From: Acidobacteriota bacterium
GTDB taxonomy: Bacteria > Acidobacteriota > Thermoanaerobaculia > Multivoradales > JBCCEF01
Length of the DNA stretch: 36,083 nucleotides
Assembly (NCBI GenBank): GCA_039028635.1
Contig: JBCCHV010000066.1
Span: 1-36,083, forward strand
Direction: 5' to 3'
Below the pieces are notes generated by a model that had not been told where the DNA came from, searched no databases, and saw only the letters and a list, made by a program, of their open reading frames with translations. Every line of letters starts with the position of its first letter. The stretch's first letter is position 1. Position numbers and translations under genes: made by a program. Positions 7,892-35,885 of the stretch are shown here, one piece after another.

Positions 7892-8569
7892 ATGAAGGGG
7901 ACTGCCTTCGGCCCAAGGTCTCGTCTGTGCTGGCTCGTGCTGCTGCTGTTGGCGGCGGTGACTCTCGCTGGTAGCGCCTTTGCCGACCAGCCACCGCCAA
8001 TCCGGCCGTCGAGCGCCCCCATATGAAGCGGTTGACCCGGCGAAGGGGCGCCGCTCCGGGGGAGCGGCATCGACGAGCGGTACAGCTTTTCACTGCGCTA
8101 CATCGACACCGATCTCGAGCGTCCGCGCTGGCGCTCGACGCTTCATGCGCGGGTTCATCCGCGGTTGCAGCTTGGTGTCGAGATCAATCCCGAGGCGGAC
8201 GAAATCGGTCCGCTGGTGACCTGGTTCCTGCTCACCGAGGACAGCCGGCGCCCGGCGCTGTTCCTCGGCACCAGCTCGGACCGCGTCGGTTCGCCCGAGG
8301 GCGAGCAGTCGTACTTCTTGACCGCCGCCAAGGGACATCCGCGCTGGCCGATTTCGGCCTATGTCAGCCTCAACTACTCGGAGTGGGATGAGGACTTCAA
8401 CTTTCCCTTCGGCGTCGAGGTCGACTTCGGCGAGCGCTACTCGCTGCGACCGATGTATGACGGCCAGCGCACCCACCTGATGCTCAATTACAAAGGCCAG
8501 CGCTTTGGCGCCTCGCTTCTCTGGATCTGGCTCGAGCGCGTCGGAGTCGCTTTTTCTACGAGGTTCTGA
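7892..8569 (+). pseudogene. Exported small barrel-like protein interrupted by two in-frame TGA codons
   Basis: From ATG 7892 the frame encodes a good signal peptide (WLVLLLLAAVTLAGSAFA) and about 10 mature residues, then TGA at 8024-8026 and again at 8033-8035. The same frame resumes and stays open to the stop at 8567. The downstream part (about 178 residues) has alternating aromatic and polar strands (RYSFSLRYIDTD, YVSLNYSEW, MLNYKGQRFGASLLWIWLE) and ends in F, suggesting an outer-membrane barrel. Between the C-run at 8016-8020 and the G-run at 8058-8062, a shifted frame reads sensibly (SAPYEAVDPAKGRRSGG). Two compensating homopolymer indels, real or assembly errors, therefore explain it well. 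The rare ATA codon before the first TGA also argues against the interrupted frame. The alternative is a U-x-x-U selenoprotein (see findings). A TTG at 8165 could only give a truncated protein lacking a signal peptide. Confidence 0.6.
8050..8068 (+). other. Strong hairpin downstream of the paired TGA codons
   Basis: GCCGCTCC (8050-8057), loop GGG (8058-8060) and GGAGCGGC (8061-8068) form a perfect eight-pair stem. The loop starts 22 bases after the second TGA and 31 after the first, which falls inside the spacing used by bacterial SECIS elements, and it contains G at the leading positions. It may instead be chance in GC-rich sequence. Confidence 0.35.
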
Positions 8570-8573
8570 GGCG

Positions 8574-9266
8574 ATGGCGAAATCCCCTCGCGCCCTGGTT
8601 ACCCTGCTCTCGATCTTGTTCTTCCTGGCTCCTGTCGGCTTCGCCCGCGAGGGTGCTGGAGCCGAAGACGGGGGGCGGGCTCTCTGCCCGGTCTGTCGTG
8701 TCCACGAAGGCGAGACGAAGGTCGAGTCGGTGGTCGCCAGCGCCGAGTTCGAAGGCCAGTGGTACGGCTTCTGCTCGGAGGGCTGCCGCGACACCTTCCT
8801 GCACGCCCCGGTCAGCTACCTACCACCGGTGTTTCCGCGGCCGGCGCCGGCGTTCGCGGTGCTGGGTCTCGATGGTTCCGAAGTCTCTTCGGAGTCTTAT
8901 CGTGGCAAGGTCCTGCTGGTCGACTTCTGGGCCACTTGGTGCCCGCCCTGTGTCAAGGACCTCCCGAGTCTCACCCGCCTGCACGAGCGCTACGCAGACG
9001 ACGGCCTGGTGGTGGTCAGCATTTCGATCGACGAAGGGGAGGATGCGGAGCGCAAGGTCGCCAAGATGGTCAAGCGGCGGAAGGCTCGGCATCCGGTCTT
9101 TTTGGACGCCACCACGTCCGCCTGGGTCGACTACCAGGTGCGAGTGGTGCCGACCCAGTTCCTGGTCGACCGCGCCGGGCAGATCGTGGCTCAGTGGTCT
9201 GGCAAGGTCGAGCTGGAGGCGGTGGAAGCCGAGATCGTTCGCCTGCTCGGTGTCGAGGACGGCTGA
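8574..9266 (+). CDS. Exported YHS/TRASH-like plus TlpA-type thioredoxin fusion protein
   Basis: A 230-residue periplasmic protein. The signal peptide (LLSILFFLAPVGFA) leads to a four-cysteine module with C38-P-V-C41 and C67-SEG-C71 in the context YGFCSEGCRDTF, typical of YHS/TRASH-like metal-binding domains. From about residue 88 a TlpA/redoxin domain follows, with FWATWCPPC (catalytic Cys123 and Cys126) and the cis-proline loop VVPTQFLVD. The expected role is a periplasmic thiol-disulfide reductase whose activity or target involves a bound metal, for example copper or haem maturation. The ATG lies 4 bases after the stop of the upstream interrupted gene, so the two are likely cotranscribed. 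The domain order is clear; the partner is unknown. Confidence 0.88.
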   Translation: MAKSPRALVTLLSILFFLAPVGFAREGAGAEDGGRALCPVCRVHEGETKVESVVASAEFEGQWYGFCSEGCRDTFLHAPVSYLPPVFPRPAPAFAVLGLDGSEVSSESYRGKVLLVDFWATWCPPCVKDLPSLTRLHERYADDGLVVVSISIDEGEDAERKVAKMVKRRKARHPVFLDATTSAWVDYQVRVVPTQFLVDRAGQIVAQWSGKVELEAVEAEIVRLLGVEDG

Positions 9267-16675: not shown

Positions 16676-17968
16676 ATGAATTTCGAGACCCCGATGGATG
16701 ATGCGACGGTGGCTCCGGAGCCACCGTCCTCTGCCTCGCCGAGCCTGCCATTCCTCGCTGTCAGCTTGTTCGTGCTGCTCTGGTTGGGCGGCTCCGGTCT
16801 ACTGATCGGTGCCTGGATCCATCCGCTGGTGCCGGGAGGGTGGTGGACGGTGTTGGCGCTCTTGGGCGTGGTGCTCTTACCCCTCCGGACGCTGCTGCGC
16901 GGCTTTCGAGGCCGTTCCTATCCGTCGGCGATGACCCGGCTGTGGGTGCTTCGGCCCTTCTGGTTCGCGATGGGTGCTTTTCCCCTGCTCGCCGTCTCCA
17001 CCGCCGTTGCCGGGCTCGTCGGTTGGCCCTGGGGACTCGCCGGCAGCGCCGGTCGCTGGGGCTTGGCGGCTGGAGCATCGGTCCTCGTGGTGATGACCGC
17101 GGCCGGCTATCGCGGGGCGCGCCAGCTGGTGGTTCGGCGCCTCGAAGCCTCCTTGCCACGGTTGCCGAGTGCCTTCGACGGCTTACGGGTGGTGCAGATT
17201 TCGGATCTCCACATCGGCCCGCACACCTCGCGCGGTTTCTTGGCCCGGATGGTTGCGGAGATCGAGCGGGCCGACCCGGATCTGGTGGTCTTCACCGGCG
17301 ACCAGGTCGATGATTTTGCGCGCGACGTCGAGCTCTTCAATCAGACCTTTCGCCGACTCCAGCCGCCTCTCGGGAGGATCGCCGTGGCCGGGAATCACGA
17401 CGTCTACGCCGGTTGGGACAAGGTGCATCGAGGTCTCGAGGCGGGGGGCTGCCGCGTGCTGGTCAATCAGGCCATGGCTCTCGAACGGCACGGCCAGCGG
17501 CTGTGGATCGCGGGCACTGGAGATCCCGCTGGCAGGGCGTGGCGGCGGGACGGCGGGGCCGCGGCGACTCCCGACGTCGTGGCGACCCTGGATGCCGTGC
17601 CGCCGGGCGAAGCGACCCTCGCCCTGGCCCACAACCCCGCCCTCTGGCCGGCCCTCGCCGGGCGCGGCGTCGATCTCACCCTGAGTGGCCATACCCACTA
17701 CGGACAGTTCGCGCTTCCGCGCCTGGGGTGGTGCGCCGCCTCGCCCTTTCTCGACCTGGCGATGGGCGCTCATCGGTCCGATCGCTCGCTGCTCTACATT
17801 CATCCCGGGAGCAATTACTGGGGCATTCCGGTGCGCATTGGGACGCCACCGGAGGTGACTCTGTTGACCCTGCGACGCGGGGCGCCGGCGCTGCGCGAAG
17901 TCGGCCGCTCGCGGTGTGGCGGCGCGCCGCCGTTGGTGGACCCCGCCGAGGCCGAGGAGGAGTCATGA
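16676..17968 (+). CDS. Membrane-anchored calcineurin-like metallophosphoesterase
   Basis: A 430-residue protein with a four-segment membrane domain (about residues 24-46, 56-74, 97-120 and 126-145) followed by a phosphoesterase domain. Metal-binding motifs are all present: D177-L-H179 in ISDLHIG, D209 in FTGDQVDD, GNHD (239-242), and GHTHYG (338-343). This architecture matches YkuE/YaeI-type phosphoesterases that act on phospholipid-linked or nucleotide substrates at the membrane. The ATG is the usual length for the family; another ATG five bases upstream opens only a two-codon frame. Its stop overlaps the next start as ATGA, so it is translationally coupled to the selenoprotein gene downstream. 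Confidence 0.9.
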   Translation: MNFETPMDDATVAPEPPSSASPSLPFLAVSLFVLLWLGGSGLLIGAWIHPLVPGGWWTVLALLGVVLLPLRTLLRGFRGRSYPSAMTRLWVLRPFWFAMGAFPLLAVSTAVAGLVGWPWGLAGSAGRWGLAAGASVLVVMTAAGYRGARQLVVRRLEASLPRLPSAFDGLRVVQISDLHIGPHTSRGFLARMVAEIERADPDLVVFTGDQVDDFARDVELFNQTFRRLQPPLGRIAVAGNHDVYAGWDKVHRGLEAGGCRVLVNQAMALERHGQRLWIAGTGDPAGRAWRRDGGAAATPDVVATLDAVPPGEATLALAHNPALWPALAGRGVDLTLSGHTHYGQFALPRLGWCAASPFLDLAMGAHRSDRSLLYIHPGSNYWGIPVRIGTPPEVTLLTLRRGAPALREVGRSRCGGAPPLVDPAEAEEES

Positions 17969-18648
17969 GAAGTGAAAACTGTTGGGTGACCGGATCGGTC
18001 CTGGCGCTGGCGCTGCTGCTCGGTGTGCCGGCGACCGGCGCCGAAGATCAGGTGTGCTTTGCGGATTGTTCCGGGGACCTCGCCGGTGAGCGCGACCGGG
18101 GACCGCGCCTCGGCAGCGTAGCGCCGGCGATCGAGGTCTTTCGCTCGCCGGATGCGGGAGACGCGGCGACTCTGGAGTCGCTGCTGCGCGGCCGCCCCGT
18201 GATTCTGGCCTTCGGCAGCCTCACTTGAATGGGTTTGCGCTCCCAGTTCGGGAGCTTGGTCGAGCTCGAACGGCGCTGGCGGGGCCAGGCCGACTTCTAT
18301 CTGGTCTACGGTCGCGAAGCGTTCCCCAGCGAGTCTCGTTGGCCGGCACCGGTTCCCGATGGAGAAGTGGTCTCGGCACCCACCAGCCTGGCCGAGCGGT
18401 CGGTCTTGGCAGAGCGCTTCCGGGCGCAGGTGAGCGACCATCTGCCGCTGTTGCTCGATGGTCTCGACGACGCCGCGATGGCGGCCTATGACGCCTATCC
18501 CTTCCGGGTCTACGGCATCACGCCGACGGGTCGCATCGCGGTCCCCTCGGCCAAGGGTGCCGCCGGCTTCAGCGCCACCCTCGAGCGCATCGATCGCTGG
18601 TTGAAGAGCGTTACCGGCGAAGCCGCCACGACGCCCTCGGAAGACTGA
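17965..18648 (+). CDS. Deiodinase-family selenoprotein (in-frame TGA read as Sec)
   Basis: Read through TGA 18226-18228, the frame gives 227 residues with a signal peptide ([16 protein letters not shown]), cysteines 31 and 35, and a thioredoxin-fold domain. The motif [11 protein letters not shown]88 matches the FGSxTU active site of iodothyronine deiodinases, where U is selenocysteine. Downstream it continues to match the family: [38 protein letters not shown], then [10 protein letters not shown] and a terminal helix ending IDRWL. The His of the EAHPS motif, important in animal deiodinases, is Phe120 here, so true deiodination is doubtful; a peroxiredoxin-like or thiol-oxidoreductase role in the envelope is more likely. 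Coupling by ATGA to the phosphoesterase supports the start. An ATG directly after the TGA (18229) invites mis-annotation as a truncated cytosolic 139-residue protein. Confidence 0.9.
18239..18270 (+). promoter_or_regulatory. Candidate bacterial SECIS element
   Basis: Two overlapping, mutually exclusive hairpins follow the TGA. The first is GCTCCC-AGTTC-GGGAGC (18239-18255), whose loop begins 16 bases after the TGA. The second is TTC / bulged GG / GAGCT - loop TGGTCG - AGCTC / GAA (18247-18270), whose loop begins 28 bases after. The second has a GGUC-containing loop and a 5' bulge, like the E. coli fdhF SECIS that SelB recognises. Both fit the usual distance and have a G among the first two loop bases. 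Confidence 0.7.
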
Positions 18649-29862: not shown

Positions 29863-30273
29863 CTAGACCTTCAGCCCTTCGAGTCCCTGGCGGAGCCACT
29901 CCGGCAGGGGCTTCTTGCGATAGGCCGCCAGGTCCATCCACACAGTGACCACGCGACCCTCGGCGGCGATCTCGTCGCCCTGGTGGTAGAGCCGGAAGCG
30001 CCAGGTGACGGAGGTTTTCCCGAGATCGAGGACGCGGGCTTCGGCCTCGATGACGTCGCCGTAGGCCAGGGGGCGGCGGTAGTCGACCTCCAGGCGAACC
30101 GCTGGCAGCCCGACCTGGCGCTGGTTGATCAGCTCCGGATAGGGCACGCCGAGGGCCGCCCCGAAGACCTCTTCCATGGCGACATGGAAGTAGTGCGGGA
30201 TGCGTGGGTAGTAGACGATGCCGGCGCTGTCGACGTCGGCGAAGCGCACCGTCAGCCGACTGCGGAAGGTCAT
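29863..30273 (-). CDS. 4HBT-fold acyl-CoA thioesterase
   Basis: A 136-residue hotdog-fold thioesterase that hydrolyses a CoA thioester in the cytosol. The N-terminal signature is VRFADVDSAGIVYYPRIPHYFHVAMEE, with the catalytic Asp in ADVDSAG as in 4-hydroxybenzoyl-CoA thioesterases. VDYRRPLAYGDVIEAEARV and KTSVTWRFRLYH follow. The start is placed at 30273, where ATG overlaps the stop of the upstream flavoprotein as ATGA; the upstream open sequence is the flavoprotein read in another frame. Coupling to a CoA-ester monooxygenase strongly suggests it releases the hydroxylated or reduced product. Confidence 0.92.
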   Translation of the reverse strand: MTFRSRLTVRFADVDSAGIVYYPRIPHYFHVAMEEVFGAALGVPYPELINQRQVGLPAVRLEVDYRRPLAYGDVIEAEARVLDLGKTSVTWRFRLYHQGDEIAAEGRVVTVWMDLAAYRKKPLPEWLRQGLEGLKV

Positions 30274-32633
30274 TCGGCGATCGGCTCGGCGACCAGCGGG
30301 GCCTTGGAAGCTTCTTCCTCCGGCAGGGATTCGCGCCGCGGCCCCATCGGTGACAGGGGGCGCAGCTTGCGCCGCCGGCTGGCTCTGGGCGGGGTCGCCC
30401 GCCCGAGGACGTACTGGCCGGGCCAGGGGTGATCCCACAGCTCATAGTGCTCGGCGGCGTGGAGCGTGAGATAGGGGTTGTGGAGGTGTGGTCGCGCCAT
30501 CAGCGCGAGGTCGGCGCGGCCGGCGGCGAGCACCGTGTTGGCGTGATCGGCCCCCTGGAGGGCACCGACGGCCATCACCGGGAGATCGGTCTCGAAGCGC
30601 GCCTTCTCGGCGAAGGGCACCTGGTACATGCGGCCGTACTCGGGCAGGGACTCGGGGGAGTTTCCCGCCGACGAGACGTCGAGAATGTCGCAGCCGGCGG
30701 CGCTCAAGCGGCGCGCGATGGCTACCGTTTCGTCCGGCGTCGTGCCGCTGCCGTCGTCCATCCAGTCGCTCGCCGAGACCCGCACCGCCAGCACCTTGGG
30801 CCAGACGGCGCGCACCGCCCGCAGCACCTCGAGGGGATAGCGGATGCGATTCTCGAGGCTGCCGCCATACTCGTCCCGGCGCTGATTGGAAAGCGGCGAC
30901 AGGAAGCTCGACAGCAGGTAGCCGTGGGCCATGTGCAGCTCGAGGAGGTCGAATCCGGCCTCGAGGGCGCGCTCGGCGGCGGCCACGAAGGCTGCCGTGA
31001 TGCGCTCCATGTCGGCTCGGTCCATGGCCTTCGGCACCGGCCAGTGGGGGTAATAGGGCAGCGCCGAGGGGGCGAGGGTTTGCCAGGCCCCTTCCGCCGC
31101 GGTCAGCGGGATGTCCTCCCCTTGCCAGGGATGGTGGACGGAGCCCTTGCGGCCGGCGTGGGCGAGCTGGATGCCGATCTTGGTGCCGGAGTGGCCGTGC
31201 ACGAAGTCGACCACCCGCTTCCAGGCGGCGGTGTGATCGTCGTTCCACAGACCGGCGCAGCCGGGGGTGATCCGTCCTTCCGGCGTGACGTCGGTCATCT
31301 CGGTGATGATCAGGCCGGCGCCGCCGATGGCGCGGCTGCCGAGGTGCACCAGGTGCCAGTCGTCGATCAGGCCGTCGCGGGCCGAGTACTGGCACATCGG
31401 GCTGACCACGATGCGGTTGGCGAGCTCGAGGTCGCCGAGGCGGAAGGGAGTGAAGGCGGGCGGCGGCGGCTCGGCGCCGGCGGGGACTTCGACCCCGCGG
31501 TCGCGGCAGTACCAGGCGTTGATCCGGCGCACCAGCTCGGGATCCCGTTCGGCGAGGTTGTCGTAGGTGATGCGCTTGCTGCGAGTCATCAGGTTGAAGG
31601 TGAACTGCACCGACTCCTGATCCTCGAAGCGGGCCGAGTTCTCGAACCACTCGAGGCTGGTCTGGGCGGCCTTCTGGAGCTTGACGACTTCCACCCAGCG
31701 GGCGTTCTCATAGGCCTCGAGGATCTCGGCAATGGAGCCCCCCGGTCGCTGCTGGAAGGCCTCGACGAGGGTCACCGCGTCTTCCATGGCGAGCTTGGTG
31801 CCGGAGCCGACGGAGAAATGGGCGGTGTGGGCGGCGTCCCCCAGCAGGACGACGTTGCCGTGGTGCCAGGTCTCGCACTGAACCGTCGGGAAGCTGCGCC
31901 AGATGGAACGGTTGTTGAGCAGCCGATAGCCGTCGAGATGCTCGGCGAAGAGCTCTTCGCAGAAGGCCACCGTCTCCGCCTCGGTGGCCGCGGCGAGGCC
32001 GGCCGCCTGCCAGGTCTCTTCGCGGCACTCGACGATCCAGGTCGAAAGGCCCTCCTCGAAGGGGTAGGCGTGGACCTGGAACAGGCCGTGCTCGCTGGGC
32101 TCGAAGATGAAGGTGAAGGCCGACAGCGGCTTGTCCGTGCCCAGCCAGGTGAACTTGCAGCGTCGCCAATCGATGCGCGGCCGGAACTGGTCGGCGAGCT
32201 GGCGGCGTACCCAGCTATTGGCGCCATCGGCGGCGAGAATCAGGTCGGCATCGCGAAACTCATCGAGGCTGGCGACCTCGCGCTCGAACTCGATCTCGAC
32301 ACCGAGGTCGAGGCACCGGCGGTGCAGGATCGCCAGGAGCTTTTTGCGCGATAGCGCCGAAAAGCCATGGCCGGTGGAGACCGTGCACTCGCCGTGGCGG
32401 TAGGTCTCGATGTCGGTCCAGTGCTTGAAATGACGCGTGATCTCGGCGTAGCTCACCGCGTCAGCGGCTTCGAAGTTCTCCAGCGTCTCGTCCGAGAACA
32501 CCACGCCCCAGCCGTAGGTGTCGTCGGGGCGATTGCGTTCGAGGATGCGGATCTCCGTCTCCGGAAACGCCCGCTTCATCAGAATGCCGAAATAGAGCCC
32601 TGCGGGACCTCCGCCGATGCTGACGATTTTCAT
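30270..32633 (-). CDS. Fused salicylyl/2-aminobenzoyl-CoA-type monooxygenase-reductase
   Basis: A 787-residue cytosolic flavoprotein. The N-terminal half (1-380) is a FAD-dependent aromatic hydroxylase: GGGPAGL (7-13) for FAD, ADGANSWVR, and NVVLLGDAAHTAHFSVGSGTKLAMEDA, typical of p-hydroxybenzoate-hydroxylase-like enzymes. The C-terminal half (about 395-760) is an Old Yellow Enzyme-like oxidoreductase: NRIVVSPMCQYSA, IGIQLAHAGRKG, LHMAHGYLLSSFLSPLSNQR, YGGSLENRIR and PHLHNPYLTLHAA. The fusion matches bifunctional salicylyl-CoA 5-hydroxylase/oxidoreductases and the Azoarcus 2-aminobenzoyl-CoA monooxygenase/reductase, which hydroxylate then reduce an aromatic CoA ester. The neighbouring thioesterase fits. 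No ring-cleavage genes are nearby, so the rest of the pathway is elsewhere. Confidence 0.92.
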   Translation of the reverse strand: MKIVSIGGGPAGLYFGILMKRAFPETEIRILERNRPDDTYGWGVVFSDETLENFEAADAVSYAEITRHFKHWTDIETYRHGECTVSTGHGFSALSRKKLLAILHRRCLDLGVEIEFEREVASLDEFRDADLILAADGANSWVRRQLADQFRPRIDWRRCKFTWLGTDKPLSAFTFIFEPSEHGLFQVHAYPFEEGLSTWIVECREETWQAAGLAAATEAETVAFCEELFAEHLDGYRLLNNRSIWRSFPTVQCETWHHGNVVLLGDAAHTAHFSVGSGTKLAMEDAVTLVEAFQQRPGGSIAEILEAYENARWVEVVKLQKAAQTSLEWFENSARFEDQESVQFTFNLMTRSKRITYDNLAERDPELVRRINAWYCRDRGVEVPAGAEPPPPAFTPFRLGDLELANRIVVSPMCQYSARDGLIDDWHLVHLGSRAIGGAGLIITEMTDVTPEGRITPGCAGLWNDDHTAAWKRVVDFVHGHSGTKIGIQLAHAGRKGSVHHPWQGEDIPLTAAEGAWQTLAPSALPYYPHWPVPKAMDRADMERITAAFVAAAERALEAGFDLLELHMAHGYLLSSFLSPLSNQRRDEYGGSLENRIRYPLEVLRAVRAVWPKVLAVRVSASDWMDDGSGTTPDETVAIARRLSAAGCDILDVSSAGNSPESLPEYGRMYQVPFAEKARFETDLPVMAVGALQGADHANTVLAAGRADLALMARPHLHNPYLTLHAAEHYELWDHPWPGQYVLGRATPPRASRRRKLRPLSPMGPRRESLPEEEASKAPLVAEPIAE

Positions 32634-33526: not shown

Positions 33527-34876
33527 ATGGAGCCGAATGCAAACCCAACTCTGATTCAACGCCTGGGGGAGTCGACCTTCGTCAAGCTGGCGACCCTGGG
33601 CTTTTTGCTTCTGCTGCTGCTCTTGCCGGTGAGCCGGGTGCGCTCCCTGGTCAACGAGCGCATGGGCCGGCAGCAGGAAGTGCGCCACGAGATCACCCGC
33701 ACCTGGGGCAGCGCCCAGACCCTGCTCGGCCCGGTGCTGACGGTGCCGGTCGAGGTGCTGCGCGAGCGGCCGGTCGAGAAAGAGGGCGACGCCGTCAAGA
33801 CCTACTGGCAAGCCCACTACGTTCGCATCTTGCCGAAATCCTTGAGCTGGCAGGGAGAGGTCAACCCCGAGATCCGCAATCGCGGCCTGTTCGAGGTCGT
33901 GCTCTACGAGAGCGAGCTGGCGGCCAGCGGTCATTTCGAGATTCCAGATCTCGGTGGCGACGATCGCCGGGTGCGCTGGCAGGATGCGGAAGTGGCCCTG
34001 TTGCTGTCGACACCGCGCGGCTTGCAGCGTGAAGTGATCCTCGAGTGGGGCGATGGTGAATACCCCTTCCGGCCCGGCGCCGGTCTCGCCGACGGCCTCG
34101 GCAGTGGCATCCGGGTACCGCTTTCGGACCTCGCCGCCGACAGCGCGGTGCCGTTCTCCTTCGACCTTTCGTTGCGCGGCGCCGAAGAGCTGCTGTTCAT
34201 CCCGGTGGGCGACCTCACGACGGTCGCTCTCGGCTCGCCCTGGCAGGATCCCGGGTTCGTCGGCAGCTTCCTGCCGCAGCAGCGCCGACTCGATGCCGCG
34301 GGATTTGCGGCCGACTGGCAAGTGCCCGCCTTCGGCCGCGGCTTTCCAGGCCTGTGGTGGGACGGCCAGGTCGCCGACGTGACCCTCGACGCGACGGCCT
34401 TCGGCGTGTCCTTGATTCTGCCGGCGGACGCTTACCAACAGACGGAGCGGGCGGTGAAGTACGCGATGTTGTTCATCGTGCTGACCTTCGGCACCTTCTT
34501 CCTGCTCGAGGTCACCAGCCCGCGGCGCCTGCATGCGGTGCAGTATCTGCTCGTTGGCTTCGCCCAGTCGGTGTTCTACGTCCTGCTGCTGGCCCTCGCC
34601 GAGCACCTCGGCTTCGCTGCTGCCTACGGCCTCGCCGCCGTCGCCACCGTCGGATTGATCGCCGCCTACTCGGCGAGCGTGCTCGGCGGTTGGCGTCGCG
34701 CCGGTATCGTCGGTGTGTCCTTGGCGCTGCTCTATGGCTATCTGTTCGTGCTGCTGCGCCTCGAGGATCTCGCCCTGCTGGTGGGAGCGGTGGGCTTGTT
34801 CGCCGTCCTCGCCTTGCTGATGATCGCCACCCGCCACCTCGATTGGTTCAGCTTGCGCTGGCAGGCCGATCGTTGA
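33527..34876 (+). CDS. creD: Inner-membrane protein CreD
   Basis: A 449-residue CreD-family inner-membrane protein. The ATG at 33527 has AAGGAGGGAGG upstream and is chosen over longer open frames. An N-terminal membrane helix (LATLGFLLLLLLLPVSRVRSLVNERMGRQ) is followed by a large periplasmic domain with EVRHEITRTWGSAQTLLGPVLTVPV, GNRG-like turns (NRGLFEVVLYESEL), GAEELLFIPVGDLT and VPAFGRGFPGL, then about five C-terminal membrane segments. In enterobacteria CreD responds to the CreBC system and affects envelope integrity and colicin/beta-lactam sensitivity. No creBC is in the window. Its 3' end overlaps the convergent MarR-GNAT gene by 29 bases. Confidence 0.93.
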   Translation: MEPNANPTLIQRLGESTFVKLATLGFLLLLLLLPVSRVRSLVNERMGRQQEVRHEITRTWGSAQTLLGPVLTVPVEVLRERPVEKEGDAVKTYWQAHYVRILPKSLSWQGEVNPEIRNRGLFEVVLYESELAASGHFEIPDLGGDDRRVRWQDAEVALLLSTPRGLQREVILEWGDGEYPFRPGAGLADGLGSGIRVPLSDLAADSAVPFSFDLSLRGAEELLFIPVGDLTTVALGSPWQDPGFVGSFLPQQRRLDAAGFAADWQVPAFGRGFPGLWWDGQVADVTLDATAFGVSLILPADAYQQTERAVKYAMLFIVLTFGTFFLLEVTSPRRLHAVQYLLVGFAQSVFYVLLLALAEHLGFAAAYGLAAVATVGLIAAYSASVLGGWRRAGIVGVSLALLYGYLFVLLRLEDLALLVGAVGLFAVLALLMIATRHLDWFSLRWQADR

Positions 34877-35816
34877 GCCGGATTTCCATCTGGATGTCCG
34901 ACCGTGAGTACCCGGAGGGCTGGTTCTCGACTTCGACGAAACCCAGCTTGCGGTAGAGCTGGAGCGCCGGCGCCAGGCGCCGGTTGCTTTCCAGGAAGGC
35001 GCGGGGCGCGCCGAGCTGGCGCGCCCGCTCGATCACCGCTCGGCCGAGGAGGGCGCCGATTCCGAGACCCTGGGCCGAGGGCGTGACCGCCATCTTGGCG
35101 AGCTCGAAGCCGCCGTCGTCCATCTTGATCAGGGCGCAGGTGCCGACCACCTCGCCGCGGTGGAGGGCCATCAGGATCTGGCCGCCGGGCTCGAGGATGG
35201 TCGCCTCGGGATTCTGCAGGTAACGCAGGTCCTGCTCCTCGATCTCGAAGTAGGCGTCGATCCACTCGCGGTTGAGGCGCTCGAAGGCCGGGCCGTCGCC
35301 GGCCTCGAAGTCGCGCACTGCGACCTCGCCGGCGGGGGAAGCGTGAAAGCGCCGGGCGACCCGCTCGTAGAGGCTCTGGCGGTCGAGGATCGCCTCGACC
35401 TCGCCGAGGGCGGCCCACAGGTCGTGGCTCATGGCGCCCAGGATGTCGTCGACGGCGGCGCTGACATCGCGTCGCTGCGGCGCCATCTGGTCGACTGCCT
35501 GGTGACCGGCCTCGGTGAGGCGGGCGAGGCGCTGGCGCCGATCCTCCGCACTGCGCTCCGAAGTCGCCAGGCCGGCCTTGGTCATGGCCTTGAGAATCTG
35601 GCTCACCGAGGCGTGGGAGTGGCCGATGATGCGTCCGATCTCGCCCACCGGCAAGGGGCCCTGGTGGGCGAGCACGTAGACCACCGGAAACCAGCGCGGG
35701 TCGAGGGGAGAGCCGTAGAGGGCGTAGAGCTGGGCGGCGTCCTCGGTGATGCGAGCCGTCAGGGCGCGCAGCCGCGAGCCGATGGCCATCGGTCCGAGAT
35801 GTCGATAGAAGTCCAT
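34848..35816 (-). CDS. MarR regulator fused to GNAT acetyltransferase
   Basis: A 322-residue fusion. Residues about 1-150 are a MarR-type winged helix: VVYVLAHQGPLPVGEIGRIIGHSHASVSQILKAMTKAGLATSERS, wing DRRQRLARLT, and a long dimerisation helix. Residues about 165-315 are a GNAT domain with EVVGTCALIKMDDGGFELAKMAV, PSAQGLGIGALLGRAVIERARQLG (acetyl-CoA loop) and LQLYRKLGFVEVE. Such MarR-GNAT fusions are a known architecture and may couple acetylation to repression. The start at 35816 has AGGGAG with 6-base spacing; upstream open sequence to 35885 is the promoter. The gene is convergent with creD. Confidence 0.92.
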   Translation of the reverse strand: MDFYRHLGPMAIGSRLRALTARITEDAAQLYALYGSPLDPRWFPVVYVLAHQGPLPVGEIGRIIGHSHASVSQILKAMTKAGLATSERSAEDRRQRLARLTEAGHQAVDQMAPQRRDVSAAVDDILGAMSHDLWAALGEVEAILDRQSLYERVARRFHASPAGEVAVRDFEAGDGPAFERLNREWIDAYFEIEEQDLRYLQNPEATILEPGGQILMALHRGEVVGTCALIKMDDGGFELAKMAVTPSAQGLGIGALLGRAVIERARQLGAPRAFLESNRRLAPALQLYRKLGFVEVENQPSGYSRSDIQMEIRLNDRPASAS

Positions 35817-35842
35817 GAGGCTCTCCCTGGAGATGATTAATT

Positions 35843-35854
35843 GTAAGCGCTTAC
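35843..35854. promoter_or_regulatory. LacI-like palindromic operator GTAAGCGCTTAC
   Basis: A perfect 12-base palindrome starting 2 bases after the -10 of the MarR-GNAT promoter, so it spans the likely start site. The extended TGTAAGCGCTTACG closely resembles GalR/LacI-family operators (TGTAANCGNTTACA). Autorepression by the MarR domain is the alternative. Which protein binds is unknown. Confidence 0.65.
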
Positions 35855-35856
35855 GG

Positions 35857-35885
35857 ATTATGCAAAGGGCGACCCCGGCTGTCAA
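35857..35885 (-). promoter_or_regulatory. Promoter of the MarR-GNAT gene
   Basis: On the minus strand a perfect -35 TTGACA (35885-35880) and -10 CATAAT (35862-35857) are exactly 17 bases apart. This is among the best promoters in the window. Transcription would begin near 35850, inside the palindrome. Confidence 0.75.

Follow-up and report, generated by a model that had tools for sequence, protein, structure and literature searches.

A divergent deiodinase-family gene from an Acidobacteriota bacterium, very probably a selenoprotein gene, in which the conserved histidine is replaced by phenylalanine

A single in-frame TGA divides an otherwise open reading frame in contig JBCCHV010000066.1 of an Acidobacteriota bacterium, and the question raised by this locus is whether the codon acts as a stop or is read as selenocysteine (Sec). 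When ORF listing ends at the TGA, the window (the whole stretch of 36,083 nucleotides that was analysed) yields a 139-residue ORF at 18229-18648; the gene is thus one more that would be divided by annotation ending at this codon. In the original prediction the two halves were joined into one forward-strand frame reading through the TGA, and the coordinates, the frame, the residues before the TGA and the EAFPS motif after it all proved correct. The frame starts with the ATG at 17965, ends with a TGA at 18646-18648 and contains one internal stop, the TGA of codon 88. The features discussed are collected in Table 1. Within the window, no match was obtained with Rfam at gathering scores and no tRNA gene was detected; a plasmid search gave no match.

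Table 1. Positions in the window of the features discussed in the text
Feature	Position	Strand	Evidence or remark
Calcineurin-like phosphoesterase, hydrophobic N-terminal part	16676-17968	+	Stop overlaps the selenoprotein start (ATGA)
GAGGAGGAG, ribosome-binding-like stretch 5' of the start ATG	17954-17962	+	Sequence
Very probable selenoprotein gene, deiodinase family (PF00837), 227 residues, Sec at 88	17965-18648	+	Frame, profile, Dio3 match, alignment
Presumed signal peptide, residues 1-26	17965-18042	+	Hydrophobic residues about 7-21; low model confidence in the first 40 residues
Cys31-x3-Cys35, possible resolving pair	18055-18069	+	Sequence; presumed role
In-frame TGA, very probable Sec codon 88, between model strand 79-84 and helix 89-104	18226-18228	+	
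Hairpin of bacterial SECIS type, 6-bp stem, 5-nt loop AGUUC, -10.3 kcal/mol	18239-18255	+	
Phe120 (TTC) replacing the family His	18322-18324	+	Alignment

The probability of finding 226 codons without other stops is approximately 0.008, as estimated for independent bases with the base make-up of the region. One antisense frame is however also stop-free across the same stretch (codon scores of 0.13 and 0.02); the open frame alone is therefore weak evidence and the matter is decided by homology. The codon usage of the frame scores 0.16 and 0.33 bits per codon before and after the TGA, the other two forward frames being negative. The G+C content by codon position is alike before the TGA (0.736/0.563/0.77), after it (0.676/0.54/0.82) and in the upstream gene (0.723/0.549/0.809).

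The read-through product scored 49.7 bits against the PF00837 profile, for a cut-off of 27, with an alignment extending across the active site. Mouse Dio3 (PDB) was aligned by phmmer on both sides of the TGA (E 1.9e-12), which stands opposite the catalytic residue; Dio2 (PDB) was matched with an E value of 2.2e-08, and in the alignment of relatives codon 88 coincides with the Sec/Cys column. The deiodinase-family match with the TGA at the Sec position, as originally proposed, is borne out by each of these comparisons. With the NCBIfam model NF038285 (deiodinase_rel) the product reached 106 bits, under the cut-off of 250, and a canonical relative is likewise under it (202 bits). The gene is very probably, on this sequence evidence, a deiodinase-family selenoprotein gene whose internal TGA encodes Sec. 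An AlphaFold2 model computed from a 62-row alignment (A2) has a mean pLDDT of 83.8, the least confident parts being the first 40 residues and the tail. The best structural match returned by Foldseek is Dio3 (4tr3, E 5.1e-14, TM 0.79 on target), then Dio2 (9h48, E 1.6e-13), with ResA and peroxiredoxins next. Sec88 is located in the model between a strand and a helix, as in thioredoxin-fold enzymes.

The genome was searched for selA, selB, selD and tRNA-Sec, a check suggested with the original prediction, and every one is present. The tRNA-Sec has the anticodon TCA, selA (535 bits) adjoins selB (367 bits) on contig C21, and these two genes as well as selD (279 bits) score above the curated cut-offs. 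Judged by its gene content, the cell is able to make selenocysteine. As selA was found in 139 of the 148 genomes of the class, the presence of the machinery discriminates little, and nothing is learned from an association of Sec forms with selA. The selenoprotein gene and the upstream gene both end in TGA, and the codon is therefore not used generally as a sense codon. At least three further redox-family genes with an in-frame TGA occur in the same genome (contigs C35, C11 and C52), among them a formate dehydrogenase alpha-type gene (motif UHAP) and two peroxiredoxin-type genes (TPGU and YGUIFC), whose TGAs we take, from the motifs, to be at the usual catalytic spots. Their putative SECIS-type hairpins have energies of -10.9, -7.6 and -12.1 kcal/mol, respectively.

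The hairpin found downstream of the TGA in the window (GCUCCC-AGUUC-GGGAGC) has its loop beginning 16 nt past the UGA, with G as the second loop base. The bSECIS model, as given in the available part of PMC13188914, comprises a loop of 3-9 nt with G in the first two positions and a stem of 4-16 bp, located 16-37 nt from the UGA, with an energy of at most -7.5 kcal/mol. The hairpin lies within these published limits, and it goes beyond chance only when the register is fixed by the family. A generic test without fixed register gave p 0.12; once the relatives set the register, a hairpin as good as that of the window arises in 331 of 20000 synonymous recodings, and nucleotide shuffling equals it in 55 of 20000 cases. 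A stem of at least 5 pairs is found in the family register in 38 of the 69 Sec loci of the wider scan and in none of the 9 Cys loci. Hairpins of -7.5 kcal/mol or lower were obtained for 39 of these 69 Sec loci, versus 6.4% expected from synonymous recoding; 30 miss the threshold, 6 of them without any hairpin, in a simple scan that admits no bulge. The corresponding result for the Cys loci (0 of 9) is no contrast by itself because only 2% are expected there. Two loci were omitted from the hairpin scan, L115 and L075, the latter with a TGA at the site. Control TGAs, namely the terminal TGA of the gene (-2.6) and that of its neighbour (-4.9), gave no hairpin as strong as that of the window, and the fold of a 61-nt segment favours another structure (z +0.5). 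The hairpin is good supporting evidence and is not decisive alone.

These data bear on a reading in which translation terminates at the UGA and restarts at the adjoining ATG (TGAATG) to give a second polypeptide. Such a restart would draw on the position of this ATG directly after the TGA and on the residue following Sec, which is Pro in 83 of the 87 aligned Sec relatives and Met in none, the window having Met89. It would however cut the thioredoxin fold at the active site, and no purine-rich ribosome site is seen before the ATG at 18229, whereas GAGGAGGAG precedes the ATG at 17965. With the Sec machinery genes and the hairpin also present, termination followed by restart is very unlikely.

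The window protein was searched against 147 genomes including its own, 23 of which gave a match. A TGA at the same codon was found in ten loci outside its own genome, within the class, nine of them being included in alignment A1. Six loci, as well as a paralog in the same genome, have Cys at the site, and the remaining weak matches that were read are ResA-like thioredoxins. Among 396 sampled genomes of the phylum, 43 gave a match; outside its own genome the identity never exceeded 41%, no close ortholog was found in this sample and the motifs of the window protein are absent from all 24 new loci read. A wide contig scan using the window protein alone returned no matches. In a second scan, queried with alignment A1, the best 80 of 135 relatives were kept, of which 70 have TGA at the site, 9 have Cys and 1 is cut before it. 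The family members of the wider scan belong to Acidobacteriota, Planctomycetota, Verrucomicrobiota, Myxococcota, Alphaproteobacteria and others. Sec forms predominate in the bacterial deiodinase-like family across the sets covered by this analysis.

An alignment of 106 relatives (87 Sec, 17 Cys and 2 Ser) was assembled, the window protein being the 107th row. Dropped before counting were five wide-scan rows judged to be the same loci as rows from the G-numbered genomes and three odd or partial ones, all eight of which keep EAH, together with seven ResA-like or unrelated thioredoxin matches. Seven other loci were left out of the counts, and each one read keeps the His. A check of residue 88 in relatives had been called for in order to distinguish a selenoprotein gene from a pseudogene: they have Sec or Cys, save three Ser forms. 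The latter (L139, L141 and L144, same phylum) constitute one distant group, two being among the 106 rows, and have Ser at the catalytic position (GSAS-S) with EAHP still kept. At least nine changes between Sec and non-Sec forms are required on a tree built by a quick method, five of them forced by well-supported branches. The end branch of the window protein on this tree measures 3.2, versus a median of 0.28, and has no supported placement.

One base change in this single genome would suffice for a sequencing or assembly error to convert TGC (Cys) into TGA. Most relatives read carry TGA at the same codon, however, and a SECIS-type hairpin follows it in the window. The EAF and MGL changes would in addition require several base changes, and the replacement of His by Phe120 does not come from a single error because two base changes separate TTC from a His codon. 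An error of this kind is hardly credible.

Among the 87 Sec rows, 29 columns are conserved at a level of 90% or more. The window protein keeps 24 of them, and the five exceptions are Met89, Gly90, Leu91, Gly116 and Phe120. Equal or lower numbers are kept in some other Sec rows (20, 20, 21 and 24), so that the divergence as such is not unique; the loss of the His is. The column of Phe120 contains His in 106 of 106 relatives, and EAF in place of EAH is unique to the window protein among the 107 rows. One of the two patterns used in the wide scan contained EAHP, which makes that scan an unfair test of His conservation; the 34 aligned rows from genome searches made without this pattern all have His. 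EAH is an observed conservation and not a Pfam family rule, and its loss marks a variant. Phe180 is found where 80 of the 87 Sec rows have Glu or Asp.

In the available parts of PMC11592359, Pro-Pro, His162 and Glu225 in the pocket of Dio2 are linked with thyronine binding, and Dio3 His202/Dio2 His162 is implicated in a hydrogen-bond network and in substrate contact; PMC9141512, likewise in part, reports mutational evidence for a proton relay by human DIO1 His174. According to our mapping from the E-x-H spacing, the His lost in the window protein is Dio3 His202/Dio2 His162. DIO1 His174 aligns in our mapping with Pro139, and His occupies that column in only 8 of the 106 relatives, so that this second loss is common to most of the bacterial family. 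The original prediction had described the change from EAHPS to EAFPS as the loss of a catalytic His; the change is present and unique among the aligned rows, and in this mapping the residue concerned is not the proton-relay His174.

Activity as a true deiodinase of iodothyronines or other iodinated compounds would agree with the fold, with the Sec position and with the retention of Ser85, Thr87, Tyr115 and Glu118 (numbering mapped in this analysis), a Ser, Thr, Tyr and Glu network having been proposed for deiodinases in the available parts of PMC11592359 and PMC9141512. The Pro-Pro, His162 and Glu225 of Dio2 (PMC11592359) are however replaced in our mapping by Met-Gly, Phe120 and Phe180, and thyroid hormones are unexpected in bacteria according to the available part of PMC1088965. 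This activity is most improbable; the changed pocket speaks against thyronine-like substrates.

The ATGA overlap between the phosphoesterase gene and the selenoprotein gene suggests that their translation is probably coupled. Phosphoesterase orthologs with approximately 60% identity were found in two of the 21 genomes searched (G002 and G015). Neither has a deiodinase-like gene behind the phosphoesterase, and searching the rest of both genomes with the window protein gave no match; the pairing therefore looks local. A convergent MsrA gene, in its Cys form, is located 7 bases downstream of the selenoprotein gene. In a search for conserved neighbours, seven window proteins were compared with the loci of relatives; the AMP-binding ligase and the TPR regulator were the two that gave matches, and neither the phosphoesterase nor MsrA was matched at the loci searched. 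Elsewhere in the window, a 787-residue ORF on the reverse strand (30270-32633) joins a FAD-binding monooxygenase domain to a NADH:flavin oxidoreductase domain, a GNAT acetyltransferase is fused to a MarR-type DNA-binding domain (34848-35885, reverse strand), and an AhpC-TSA/thioredoxin-like match lies at 8841-9191 on the forward strand, where its frame puts it within the ORF at 8505-9266.

The gene might also be a decaying remnant, that is, a former Sec deiodinase-like gene that lost its His and Pro-Pro-Phe by drift. The loss of conserved active-site residues, the long end branch (which fast decay could also give), the lack of a close ortholog in the phylum sample and the phosphoesterase orthologs of G002 and G015 without a deiodinase-like gene would fit such a history. 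The 227 codons are however free of frameshift and of a second stop, the codon signature persists past the TGA and the hairpin is in the family register. The losses among the conserved columns, moreover, sit beside the Sec and the His, whereas neutral drift of such size should scatter them evenly. Decay is accordingly regarded as unlikely, and a working selenoprotein gene, with the UGA at 18226 read as Sec and an exported deiodinase-fold redox enzyme with a changed substrate as its product, is likely.

The operation of such a working gene can be outlined as follows. SelB and tRNA-Sec would read the UGA as selenocysteine, guided by the hairpin just downstream, and the 227-residue product would be exported across the inner membrane by means of its presumed signal peptide. 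The product is predicted to adopt a thioredoxin fold of the deiodinase type that places Sec88 where helix 1 begins, and the retained Ser85/Thr87/Tyr115/Glu118 network could set up Sec88. The residues lining the thyronine pocket, by contrast, are replaced: Pro-Pro-Phe following Sec, the His, and Glu in the PER motif. The selenolate may then attack a substrate other than an iodothyronine, such as a disulfide, a peroxide or another oxidised or halogenated compound, and either Cys31/Cys35 or an external thiol may re-reduce Sec. Cys31 and Cys35 could resolve oxidised Sec since the presumed mature protein contains no other cysteine and they are located in a low-confidence, probably mobile segment; no Cys occurs in their columns among the aligned relatives. 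A more tentative proposal, held with less than even confidence, is that the rebuilt substrate face (PPF to MGL, I to G, H to F, and the Glu of PER to Phe) serves a different periplasmic Sec-dependent reaction, in a translational unit with the membrane-anchored phosphoesterase.

The deiodinase-like selenoproteins of bacteria form a recognised family, in print since 2005. Bacterial Sec and Cys members with bacterial SECIS elements were described, with a suggested redox role, in the available part of Zhang et al. 2005 (PMC1088965), and the family appears in the table of a 2008 ocean survey (PMC2398784, in the part available). Two reviews (PMC13188914 and PMC9312934) include it, in their available parts, with the motif UxxC; the motif of the window protein is U-M-G-L and UxxC occurs in one of the 87 Sec rows. 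In the open-access literature, partly represented by titles, no tested function and no substrate of a bacterial deiodinase-like protein was found, and no paper dedicated to the family in Acidobacteria was among the matches listed there, which is weak evidence of absence.

The window protein shares with these bacterial selenoproteins (PF00837, NF038285) the family, the Sec position, the downstream SECIS-type hairpin and a bacterial host. It differs from them by the lack of Pro-Pro-Phe after Sec, the Phe in place of His and its strong divergence, as well as by a signal-peptide-like N-terminus and a start overlapping the phosphoesterase gene. The paralog of the same genome (contig C64) also belongs to PF00837, but has Cys for Sec, an N-terminus that looks lipoprotein-like by eye and an intact EAHP. 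ResA-type thioredoxins and peroxiredoxins, the next-best structural matches, have the thioredoxin fold in common with the window protein, which contains no CxxC and is nearer to deiodinases in both sequence and fold. The fold, the Sec position and the Ser/Thr/Tyr/Glu network are those of animal Dio1-3 (PDB 4tr3, 9h48), whereas the window protein has neither of the two His residues, nor the Pro-Pro pair, nor the Glu that contacts the amino group. The gene is thus a divergent form within an already known family of bacterial selenoproteins; its unusual part is the loss of the His with Sec kept, and a natural Sec member without this His constitutes a ready-made test of the role of the residue and of the bacterial reaction.
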